Positions 52,984-57,960 of a DNA stretch of 57,960 nucleotides are shown here, in pieces. The notes below the pieces were generated by a model that saw nothing but the letters and a program-made list of their open reading frames with translations, searched no databases and had not been told where the DNA came from. This DNA is from an uncultured Chlorobiaceae bacterium. Lineage in GTDB: Bacteria; Bacteroidota; Chlorobiia; Chlorobiales; Chlorobiaceae. Numbering within the stretch: the stretch's first letter is position 1; the number at the start of each line of letters is the position of its first letter. Location of the stretch: contig CAIPYV010000079.1 in assembly GCA_903869365.1 (NCBI GenBank), positions 1 to 57,960 of the forward strand, written 5' to 3'. Made by a program: the position numbers and the translations under genes.

Positions 52984-53053
52984 TTCACTCCTCTTTGGTA
53001 TCAAGGCCGGGAATCTTCCTGAGTGCCGGGCCGAATTTTTGATAGTTGACTTT
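52984..53053. repeat. pglX 3' end, partner of the scar at 51007-51076
   Basis: The functional 3' end of the pglX C-half, 60 of 70 bases identical to the orphan copy downstream of ptuB. The two copies bracket the ptuAB cassette as direct repeats 1,977 bp apart. Divergence of 10 bases argues that they came from two different pglX alleles rather than from a fresh duplication. Confidence 0.85.
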
Positions 53054-54754
53054 TACACCATCGTCGAGGTCTATTTCAAGCTGTTCAGTGGCAAGCGGAT
53101 AAAGGATTTCGCGTTCGTAACTGTCGAGCTCTTCGATCATTTTCCTGAGGCTCTCAATCTCTTTTAGAGCCTTGGTTTTTTCTCCCGCTGATGCGCTGGC
53201 GCTGATGCTTACCGCTTCGAGATGGTTCTTCTCTGTGGTTAGCTTTATGCGAAACTCGCGCAGGTAGTTGAGTACAACGCTCACTGTATCAGAACGGTAA
53301 CGGTGCATATAGATGAGCGCATTGAAACTGCCCTTGGGGCTGCTGAAAAGCCAGTAAATAGGGCGCTTCTTATATCGACGCACATGATCGCTGTAAAAAT
53401 CCTTCAGGAAATACTTGCGGATATCCTTACCAAGCGCAACCTCGATAAACTTCAGATTCTCCTCATAATGCTCCTCGCCAAAGGTGATGCGCAGGAACTT
53501 GCGGAACCGCTCGGAGATGTCGTCAGTGAACCAGTCTCCGTCGAGGATGGGGATGACGTTGTCAGCATCAGGAGGAAAGACGGAATCAGTTGGCAGTGGG
53601 CAGTTGGCAGTTGGCAGGTTTTGGTAGGTCCTGAGATTTTTCCAATAGTCCTCGATAGTTTCGCCTTGATTGGCAAGGATCAATCCGGGTTTATCGAGCG
53701 AGTAACGTCCAAACATGCAACCAACAGCGTAGGAGATAAACTCCTTCATGGTATCAGCCAGCAGCAGCACTTCAAGCTCATCGGCGTTTTTGCTGTTGCT
53801 GTAACGATAGTGCGGGTTGCAGGTCAGAGTAATTTCATTCAGTGGCACTTCAGGCGTGAGTTCATCCTGCAAACCATAAGCATCGATGAAAATGCGATTG
53901 TTCTCTTCTTCGAGGCGCAACATCTGTATCGTCATCTCCTGCCAATGGACCCGGAGGTCATGATAAGTAGCTTTCAGCGTTGGACAGCGATAATCAGATT
54001 GCAAAAGCGGTAAGCTGGTGAATTCCCAAGAAGTCTCGTATGAGTCCCAGTCTTCTTCGCTTAGAATTATACAACTTTTACCGTTTTCGTTTATTGTTGT
54101 ACATTCTAGTATTTTAGAAGATATTGGAGTTTTAGCAATGTCGCCGATGTTAAAATTAAGCGTTGGACATAGAAACGACAAAATTGATGCCGAAACTATT
54201 GAATTAAAAAATGAAATTAAGTTTATTAGCTTATCATTATTCTCAGCAAATGCCATTGGCCCTTTTCCCTCAAACATTGCCCGGTCGTCTGAATATCTCA
54301 TTGCAAATTTTCCAGATGAGATATCATTCCAAGTCATACCTTCTTTAAAATAAAAGGATGGATTTCGAATTACTGAGTTATCGAATTTTTTTATTTCTTC
54401 ACCATCGTTTTTCCAGTTAATAACAATTTCTTTATTGCCATTCCATTTCCGAAAATCTCCACCTTTATTCACAGGGTACCATTTGATACCATCAATACAA
54501 TCTTTCAAAGCCGCTTTTCCTAATTCTACTTCGAACCAATTTCTCAGATACTTGTCATTGTCAGCAGTCGTTATTCCTTTGCGAGGTTGAGCAATATCGT
54601 TCAATGAGCTACTTTCAATAAAGGAATTTCTTATGCGATCGCTTACCCAATACGCAATCGGACTACCGGGAATTTTCTTGAAATCGGGAGCTGAAGCTCG
54701 GAAGAAAAAGCAATCTGGCTTTTCTTTTGAAAGTATGTGCTCTTCGTTATTCAT
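52985..54754 (-). CDS. pglX: PglX C-terminal half (target-recognition part), separate gene
   Basis: This 589-residue protein begins with ~20 non-family residues and then [21 protein letters not shown], the PglX block that in one-piece PglX follows the methyltransferase domain. [20 protein letters not shown] and later [19 protein letters not shown] are also PglX-like, ending with a coiled helix pair. No SAM or NPPY motif is here. The strong AGGAGG before ATG 54754 lies inside the end of the AlbA_2 gene, which it overlaps by 4 bases. Residues ~1-235 (54,050-54,754) are AT-rich, and a heptamer array at 53587-53616 adds a Pro/Thr/Asn/Cys linker. Confidence 0.82.
   Translation of the reverse strand: [589 protein letters not shown]
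53587..53616. repeat. Heptanucleotide array (CAGTTGG type) inside pglX C-half
   Basis: Four 7-base units in register, CAGTTGG, CAGTGGG, CAGTTGG, CAGTTGG, then CA. On the minus strand it encodes the linker [12 protein letters not shown]. The unit differs from the AGTGCTG arrays elsewhere in the window but the 7-base design is the same. Confidence 0.8.
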
Positions 54755-56238: not shown

Positions 56239-57960
56239 TACTTCCCCGAATTATTTGCTGATTGGATTATTTCCAATGCTTTTGGTCCTTGAAGGGCAGC
56301 TCCTTTAAAATCTGATAATCGTACATAACCACCTTTGAAATCTGCATTATGATGGTTTTCGATTGTAAAGGTACAAATTGGCACCGTGGCGCCTTCAAAA
56401 CCTGAATATTCCAGTTGAATTAGAGATGTGATCGTTTTTTGATCAATAAGAAAACCTCTTAATCTTTCGTAAGATGAAATAAACATCCAAACAAATGGTG
56501 TCATAAATCCAAGTTGACCTTTTGGTAAGGTAAGCTCAGTATTGCGAACAATAAAAGCGGAAAACAAATCAGATTTTACGTCTGAGTAATTATCTTTCAG
56601 CCATAGCGCCAGCTTCCCATTCATCCCCTTACCACCCATATACGGTGGATTTGCAATCACAACATGGTATTTAGGACTGAGGTAATCGGCCTGCTGCAAA
56701 GCTTGCAAAACCTTCTGATGGGTTGGGCTCAGGAACAGTTGTCCTGAGACATTTTTAGACTCCAGAATATTCAGCATACCCGAAACATCATTGACGGCTG
56801 GTCGAATCAGGGAACCAAAGTTGTCGGCCTCTTCAAACTGCTTGAGGGTAGTCTGCAGCGGTGCGGTGAAAAGGTCGCGCCCGATGAAATCAATGTAGTC
56901 TTTGAGCTCGCTCTCATTGAAGTGGACATTCTCGAGCACGCAGATATTCGGCTTGACGCCTTTATTGAAAAACCGACGCTGCTTGCCACGGGCCTTCATA
57001 GTCAAAGCAAATGCAGCCAGCTCCCCTGCCCGTTCGTCAATTTCGATGCCGTAAAGGTTGTGCGTCAGTATCTTTTCTGGTATTTCAACAGGATCGTACC
57101 CTTCTTCTTCATAGATGGCGTAGAGTAAATCAAAGGTGTAGGTTAGAATATGGCCTGAACCGCAGGCCGGATCACACATTTTGATCTCTTCCGGCTTCCC
57201 GATATGCAAGAAGTCACTCTCCGCCTGCTCGGGTTTGATGTAGTAGTCCATCTGCTCAACCAGCTTCGAATTGGGGCGGTTGAGCATCCAGAGGCGACCC
57301 AGTGAGTTTTCTACGAGGTAGCGCACAATCCAGTGCGGCGTGAAAAGCTGAGTGGCTGCAGGAATATTCTCCGGAGTAATCTTCTTGTTCTTCTTTAAAT
57401 CATCAAATACCTTGTCCTTTTTCTCGGATATATAGAACTGGTAGAGCCAGCCAATAACCTCGACATCCTGGCAGACGTCCGGCGTCATTGCCTCGCGAGT
57501 ATACGCAAGAATGGAGTTGCCAGAAAGAAGGTCATCGGGCATCAACAACTCGGTATAATCAGCAATTTTTTCAAACAGGTATGGCATCGACTTGTTGAAG
57601 TCGTTGCACGCGGCCACCACTAAAAAGCGGTAGGCCTCGGACTGTGGATCGCGGCTTGGAGATGAACCGCCGAGCAAGGCAAATATCTGTTCGCGGGTCT
57701 TCTCCGCCACCATCTCTTCATCAATATGGCCCATCTTGGCCTCAGCCAGAATTTCAGGCTGGAACTGCCCTTCGGCTGGCGTTATGATGCCGATACGTGT
57801 GTAACGGTTGACATCCATAAAGCGCAAGGCACAGAAGCGGTTGAACCAGATATATGCTATCCGCTCGATTATCTGTTCTCTGCCATGACCCTGAATCTGC
57901 TTTTCAAGCTCAGCTATCGCTTTTGCCTCTTCACGACGGGCGGCACTTCCTTCCGTCAAC
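56238..57960 (-). CDS. pglX: PglX N-terminal half (adenine methyltransferase part), truncated by window edge
   Basis: The frame is open to the last base, so the N-terminus (perhaps 40-60 residues) is outside; the first codon visible is TTG, not a start. The visible 573 residues contain IAYIWFNRFCALRFMDVN typical of PglX, the SAM motif CDPACGSGHILTYTFD (~263), GIEIDERAGELAAFAL, and the catalytic VIANPPYMGGKG (NPPY 437-440). The protein ends normally at QGPKALEIIQSANNSGK, exactly where one-piece PglX would go on into target recognition. It N6-methylates adenine in host BREX sites, with the C-half presumably providing specificity. Confidence 0.9.
   Translation of the reverse strand, partial: LTEGSAARREEAKAIAELEKQIQGHGREQIIERIAYIWFNRFCALRFMDVNRYTRIGIITPAEGQFQPEILAEAKMGHIDEEMVAEKTREQIFALLGGSSPSRDPQSEAYRFLVVAACNDFNKSMPYLFEKIADYTELLMPDDLLSGNSILAYTREAMTPDVCQDVEVIGWLYQFYISEKKDKVFDDLKKNKKITPENIPAATQLFTPHWIVRYLVENSLGRLWMLNRPNSKLVEQMDYYIKPEQAESDFLHIGKPEEIKMCDPACGSGHILTYTFDLLYAIYEEEGYDPVEIPEKILTHNLYGIEIDERAGELAAFALTMKARGKQRRFFNKGVKPNICVLENVHFNESELKDYIDFIGRDLFTAPLQTTLKQFEEADNFGSLIRPAVNDVSGMLNILESKNVSGQLFLSPTHQKVLQALQQADYLSPKYHVVIANPPYMGGKGMNGKLALWLKDNYSDVKSDLFSAFIVRNTELTLPKGQLGFMTPFVWMFISSYERLRGFLIDQKTITSLIQLEYSGFEGATVPICTFTIENHHNADFKGGYVRLSDFKGAALQGPKALEIIQSANNSGK

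Follow-up and report, generated by a model that had tools for sequence, protein, structure and literature searches.

Type 1 bacteriophage exclusion (BREX) operons are built around brxA, brxB, brxC, pglX, pglZ and brxL, and the methyltransferase (MTase) PglX, or BrxX, of E. coli HS and Salmonella is a single chain. In E. coli BrxX, an MTase domain (residues 211-650) meets the target-recognition domain (TRD; 651-837) at the 650/651 border, surrounded by hinge loops (638-675; PMC11842806), and the hinge of Salmonella PglX lies at residues 654-659 (PMC11341690). Accessory genes are known between BREX genes, including BrxU (PMC8565348) and PARIS (PMC11341690), and a 2026 BREX survey places Schlafen-HATPase-wHTH (winged helix-turn-helix) effectors, described as RNase-type backups, near BREX in at least 1017 taxa (PMC12839542). 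Here we analysed an entire contig of an uncultured Chlorobiaceae bacterium (C79, 57,960 bases; hereafter the window), in which pglX is divided into two open genes by an intact AlbA_2 gene. It is probable that this is a functional split PglX acting like HsdM plus HsdS, its hinge being used as an intragenic slot whose defence genes can be exchanged, in a complete type 1 BREX operon.

The two pglX genes and their joint

The divided gene and its joints are laid out as follows.

56238..57959, minus strand: pglX N-half (MTase half), 573 codons; NF033452 positions 50-650; Pfam Eco57I/N6_Mtase
56238..56240, minus strand: TAATG joint, where the N-half stop TAA and the cargo start ATG overlap by one base, a shared A; GAAGTAATGAGC
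54751..56238, minus strand: slot cargo, an intact gene of 495 codons encoding SLFN_AlbA_2, HATPase_c_4 and Fic-like_C (wHTH) domains (E 7.6e-24, 5.2e-26 and 3.2e-7)
54751..54754, minus strand: ATGA joint, a 4-base overlap of cargo stop and C-half start with AGGAGG just upstream; TCAGGAGGCAAATGAAT
52985..54754, minus strand: pglX C-half (specificity half), 589 codons; NF033452 positions 645-1209
54698..54754, minus strand: opening 19 codons of the C-half, which one-piece PglX lacks; predicted to be disordered

Gene coordinates, both overlaps and the AGGAGG agree with the initial annotation. Scored against NF033452 (BREX_1_MTaseX, 1210 positions), the N-half reaches 739.8 bits and the C-half 695.6 bits, and since their matches adjoin, the PglX model is covered without loss. 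The N-half comprises the N-terminal helical part, the S-adenosylmethionine (SAM) motif DPACGSGH and NPPY, both motifs being intact; its 5′ end is lost at the end of C79, where the first ~38 codons are missing. The C-half runs from a new tail of ~20 residues through the TRD and a helical spacer to the C-terminal domain (CTD). Between them the halves contain the MTase part, with its SAM and NPPY motifs, the TRD and the CTD (NF033452 50-1209), but PglX is no longer a single polypeptide, with a stop at 56238 and a new start at 54754. Programmed frameshifting, readthrough or an intein was ruled out by the C-half's own start and Shine-Dalgarno sequence and by the 0.4-5 kb of cargo found between halves.

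The cut falls at the hinge between MTase and TRD, i.e. between the two jaws of the enzyme: aligned to E. coli BrxX, the N-half ends at residue 624 and the C-half starts at 626. In the split form the N-half ends in ...LSDFKGAALQGPKALEIIQSANNSGK-stop, whereas one-piece relatives run on through this region. An AlphaFold2 model of the C-half (mean predicted local distance difference test score (pLDDT) 86, predicted template modelling score (pTM) 0.84) has its first 19 residues disordered and superposes on Salmonella PglX 628-1221 with Z 40.8 and a root-mean-square deviation (rmsd) of 2.3 Å over 552 residues; alone, the C-half is thus confidently predicted to be a free-standing fold. Its TRD resembles HsdS chains (Z 7-10). 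Given the division at the MTase/TRD border, the two-subunit PglX proposed in the initial annotation, comparable to HsdM plus HsdS, appears likely and is well supported at the level of sequence.

Recurrence and upkeep of the split

A C-half search over 84,980 species genomes yielded 80 loci, of which 73 were resolvable; relatives are given here as numbered loci (L003, L005 and so on) and the locus under study as the window. Split pglX, cut at the same point, was found in 14 of the 73 and one-piece pglX in 59, in a sample slightly enriched in split forms by one search pattern taken from the new tail of the C-half. Four further loci (L004, L014, L074 and L077) look split and are interrupted by contig ends. 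Relatives with split pglX span at least four phyla, and AlbA_2 stands between the halves in only some of them. Fairer samples gave 9 split among 12 PglX-bearing genomes in Chlorobiaceae and 0 of 11 in other Bacteroidota; split pglX is thus common in this family and rare outside it. Among 369 gammaproteobacterial genomes and 250 from the order around a Nitrosomonadales genome, seven further genomes gave matches, six of them one-piece and one (G162) with a frame-broken pglX, and only the genomes chosen as centres were split. PglX matches listed on plasmids are mostly annotated as single pglX genes, a statement about annotation only.

Several loci are metagenome-assembled genomes and the window contig itself stops inside pglX, as would be seen if assembly or binning had joined unrelated pieces. 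However, isolates show the same layout (Pseudomonas benzenivorans DSM 8628, Advenella mandrilli, Alloalcanivorax marinus and Halomonas sp. PR-M31), as do four or more phyla with base-exact overlaps, and an artefact is almost certainly not the explanation. A distant case, L111, was reached via its reverse transcriptase: its PglX is only ~42% identical, with the same cut and the same DRT family inside, and nothing near L111 DNA was found in complete E. coli genomes. Two other loci have unusual pglX genes. L099 (G162, Gammaproteobacteria) has pglX in several broken frames, apparently a decayed or error-rich copy, and in L057 (3718-5961) the N-half is 747 residues long and aligns in two pieces, separated near residue 245 by an insertion.

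Both halves are under purifying selection, as in one-piece pglX, and the cargo decays or is nearly gone. DPACGSG and NPPY are intact in 13 of 13 complete split N-halves, and 16 C-halves contain no stops. Ratios of nonsynonymous to synonymous substitution (dN/dS, Nei-Gojobori) over split pairs were 0.02-0.10 for N-half residues 1-240 and ~0.08-0.18 for the CTD. Individual comparisons gave 0.035 (N 1-240) and 0.076 (CTD) for the window versus L003, 0.053 (whole N) and 0.113 (CTD) for L003 versus L005, and 0.079 (whole N) and 0.158 (CTD) for L008 versus L009; the one-piece pair L006/L020 gave 0.072 (N 1-240) and 0.096 (CTD). The cargo AlbA_2 gene of the window, compared with the truncated L003 copy, reached 0.455. 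These values bear on the possibility that a defence gene landed inside pglX and inactivated it, leaving BREX switched off or restricting without methylating and the halves as decaying remnants. Gene insertion normally breaks a gene, pglX is known to vary, and pglX fragments lie around the operon; nevertheless, every split locus has open halves with undamaged motifs, and dN/dS lies well below 1. The C-half moreover has a new start everywhere, often a coupled one, pglZ and brxL are retained, and a BREX system that does not methylate would presumably prove toxic or disappear. Inactivation is therefore very improbable, and the view of an organised unit rather than decay is upheld.

The TRD segment at 54050-54750 has a guanine-plus-cytosine (GC) content of 35% versus 47% in the N-half, and TRD GC is below that of the cognate N-half in 12 of 12 split loci measured. 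The TRDs of split L008 and one-piece L006 are 93% identical, which shows that one specificity allele can occur with either form. A slot serving mainly for specificity exchange, in which a separate C-half would swap TRD genes as a module like hsdS with the cargo as a passenger, would account for this GC difference, for systems that share 85-92% identity in the CTD but 39-45% in the TRD, and for split C-halves that do not form one clade. Yet one-piece pglX swaps TRDs equally (L006 versus L020: TRD 38%, CTD 90%), so that the split is unneeded for swapping, and a second C-half was not found in the source genome; we consider this explanation rather unlikely.

Changes between split and one-piece forms number at least six on the N tree (three forced by well supported branches) and at least ten on the C tree (five forced). 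Transfer of a split cassette by recombination and repeated splitting are equally likely.

Several points weigh against a functional split PglX. In one-piece BrxX only flexible loops connect the jaws, and apo-PglX has an open conformation (PMC11842806), so that cut halves would need other BREX subunits or DNA to stay together; the new tails of the split halves contain no obvious docking motif; and the CTD of Salmonella PglX could not be expressed on its own (PMC11341690). Placing all split forms in one clade is rejected by the approximately unbiased (AU) test for C-halves (p 7e-28) and is borderline for N-halves (p 0.054); these are quick trees of recombining genes, so the origins may be one or several.

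Exchange of the slot cargo

The slot holds diverse systems. AlbA_2 genes occupy it in the window, L008, L015 and L023, with a truncated copy in L003; SIR2 plus HerA are found in L005, L012 and L074; helicase plus DUF2290 in L049; a DUF1016/YhcG nuclease in L007, L015 and L077; Fic in L023; and KilA-N remnants in L008, L009 and L014. RT_UG5-nitrilase, a DRT family, is present in L007, L016, L032, L057, L067 and L076, with YVDD intact in all six. With L111, this family was thus observed inside the split pglX of unrelated bacteria. An obligate tie between RT_UG5-nitrilase and pglX was ruled out, as it stands alone on Sinorhizobium plasmids, and among four random Pseudomonadota genomes (besides the centre) it lay inside pglX only in L111.

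Cargo genes are co-oriented with pglX, and their overlaps with the halves are mostly 1, 4, 8 or 11 bases. The TAATG joint recurs in L007 with different cargo and ATGA recurs in L016 and L023; the coupled starts and stops are a general manner of packing cargo, not one peculiar to AlbA_2. Such same-strand packing with short overlaps suggests that the cargo shares a transcript with BREX, and its translation is probably coordinated with that of BREX.

Leftovers of earlier occupants indicate that the cargo turns over while the split stays. A HerA C-terminal tail (last ~85 residues, 68-74% identical to L012 HerA) precedes the C-half in L049 and L076, despite these loci now holding a helicase and a reverse transcriptase, respectively. 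L005 has kept both ends of an AlbA_2 gene ahead of SIR2-HerA, the slot of L009 is reduced to a 0.35-kb KilA-N remnant, and L007 and L074 share a DUF1016 stretch (98% identical) followed by different systems. Partial pglX copies mark both sides of the gene. Remnants of the pglX 3′ tail lie downstream of pglX in L003, L004, L008, L009, L013, L014, L015, L022 and L033, as in the window. Mirroring this footprint, a degenerate pglX 5′ end (48 codons) and an AlbA_2 QVEAQV-repeat scar stand just upstream of the real pglX in a second contig of the source genome, C48 (locus L116, 1044-1228 and 889-1010), and in L020 (5067-5324). These partial duplications would fit repeated homologous integration at pglX.

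The occupant of the window is a Schlafen/AlbA_2 protein (PF04326, 85 bits; cut-off 25.3). Its structural model matches the full-length AlbA_2 structure 3lmm with Z 23.1 and rmsd 16.5 Å, that is, domain by domain at best, and residues 4-102 match the N-terminal domain structure 2kyy (Z 10.3). No animal Schlafen structure was among the matches listed, which is no evidence against a relation. E13, E18 and D50 lie in the aligned motifs EGKTLE and GGRLIIGVTD, in an AlbA_2 part modelled at pLDDT ~50-80, and may correspond to the carboxylate triad E205/E210/D248 of rat SLFN13 (PMC5862951).

The initial annotation suggested that this protein, made in fixed ratio, is perhaps a regulator or sensor of BREX. 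An obligate three-gene complex, with the AlbA_2/GHKL protein as stoichiometric partner of a two-subunit PglX, would explain the tight coupling of the genes and the frequency of AlbA_2 beside BREX: besides its occurrences in the slot, it directly follows pglX in L016, L032, L057 and L064, and on an Azotobacter plasmid brxC and pglX flank a 60% relative. However, the same position elsewhere holds SIR2-HerA, DRT, helicase-DUF2290, DUF1016 or Fic genes or, in L009, only the 0.35-kb remnant, and intact AlbA_2 is absent from the slots of L005, L007, L012, L016, L032, L049, L057, L067 and L076. L003, the nearest relative, has lost the AlbA_2 domain and kept its PglX halves intact. Related AlbA_2 genes also occur before or after one-piece pglX or far from BREX, the latter including close relatives in Chlorobiaceae genomes. 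Such a complex is accordingly improbable, and the idea of a dedicated regulator is not supported. Because the halves persist without AlbA_2, an independent layer is likelier than a PglX partner, and the occupant is most likely a switchable RNase-type backup defence rather than a PglX subunit. A link between AlbA_2 and restriction-modification (R-M) was dropped: Chlorobiaceae relatives outside BREX have no R-M genes among the ten flanking open reading frames scanned.

For the split PglX, we propose that a single mRNA would yield the MTase chain, the cargo and the TRD/CTD specificity chain. The two chains, aided in their pairing by DNA or by further BREX subunits, would jointly do the work of one-piece PglX, including m6A methylation at a 6-bp non-palindromic site, and the cargo would be swapped by recombination within the conserved flanking halves. 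A bolder version has about an even chance of being correct: the hinge would be a dedicated intragenic integration slot in an active two-subunit PglX, with the pglX flanks as homologous landing arms that swap whole defence systems (SIR2-HerA, DRT, Schlafen, helicase-DUF2290) under BREX control across phyla, the cargo perhaps firing when PglX or BREX is blocked.

Operon context and relation to known systems

Downstream of the C-half, the window carries the following features.

51704..52981, minus strand: ptuA, PtuA (Septu ATPase); PDLC00271, E 4.2e-154; begins 3 bases past the C-half
51084..51707, minus strand: ptuB, PtuB (Septu HNH nuclease); PDLC00320, E 6.3e-88; TIGR02646 above cut-off
51011..51085, minus strand: remnant of a second pglX 3′ end behind ptuAB, 25 codons that match C-half residues 565-589 at 80% identity
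49292..51004, minus strand: GmrSD-type (DUF262/DUF1524) type IV restriction gene, BrxU/Orf5-like
46577..49111, minus strand: pglZ (BREX-1 type A); TIGR02687, 976.9 bits
44499..46568, minus strand: brxL with a C-terminal PLD-like (MIT_C) domain

C48 carries brxA (PF08849), brxB (PF08747), brxC (NF033441) and another AlbA_2 gene (559 codons), and stops inside pglX; C48 and C79 combined thus hold all six type 1 BREX genes. C48:1-478 and C79:57483-57960 are two versions of one pglX stretch (~92% identical over 478 bases), either strain variants or two copies. At the protein level, the N-half continuation on C48 shows 97% identity over 159 residues, and as the match is imperfect and the contig breaks here, the 5′ end of the N-half is uncertain. 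The contig ends share short words of ~20 bases, and their overlap looks like an assembly bubble. In the near relative L003, brxB to brxL stand on one contig; we infer that C48 and C79 are physically joined and take the operon as complete.

The adjacent PtuA ATPase and PtuB HNH nuclease identify the pair as Septu, with the NCBIfam retron-Ec78 PtuA/PtuB equivalog cut-offs unreached. ptuAB follows pglX in 7 of 14 split loci and in 6 of 54 loci with one-piece pglX (Fisher p 0.003, kinship uncorrected). As a separate observation, the phospholipase-D-like MIT_C domain of BrxL recalls the BrxL-HKD fusions of PMC12839542.

If the split PglX is functional, a core enzyme of BREX can be divided into a modification and a specificity chain and has taken up this division repeatedly, while the cut gives other immune systems a protected place. 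Half-length PglX would then be a simple genomic marker, and genes between halves candidate new defence genes. It would also bear on how PglX assembles with other BREX subunits, as something must join two separate jaws.

Split pglX with a cargo slot is a variant form of type 1 BREX that is apparently undescribed. In line with the initial annotation, no description of the layout was found in the open-licence literature, which is weak evidence; the layout is not private to this locus, given the 14 relatives sharing the cut. Half-length PADLOC models of PglX exist (PDLC02525, 607 positions; PDLC02516, 593 positions), so half-length proteins were gathered earlier, apparently without comment. Irregular pglX genes were reportedly noted by Goldfarb et al. 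in 2015, and some split cases may be among them. The searched text of PMC12839542 mentions neither split PglX nor genes placed within pglX, and it names no Septu, SIR2 or reverse transcriptases.

The locus shares its operon core and its complete run of enzyme domains with type 1 BREX of E. coli HS and Salmonella, where PglX/BrxX is one-piece; it differs in encoding MTase and TRD/CTD separately, with further defence genes in the gap. Like HsdM and HsdS of type I R-M systems, modification and specificity chains are divided at the MTase/TRD border. Unlike them, the halves are a cut PglX with one TRD, a CTD peculiar to BREX and no adjacent HsdR found; no HsdS or HsdR family matched in the eight genes scanned and the C-half has no Pfam family, so the likeness is one of resemblance and not of membership. 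The Schlafen-HATPase-wHTH effectors reported near BREX (PMC12839542) have the same domain order as the present occupant. As with BrxU or PARIS-type cargo in BREX islands, accessory defence genes lie within the BREX operon; theirs stand between genes, whereas here they stand inside pglX and divide the protein.

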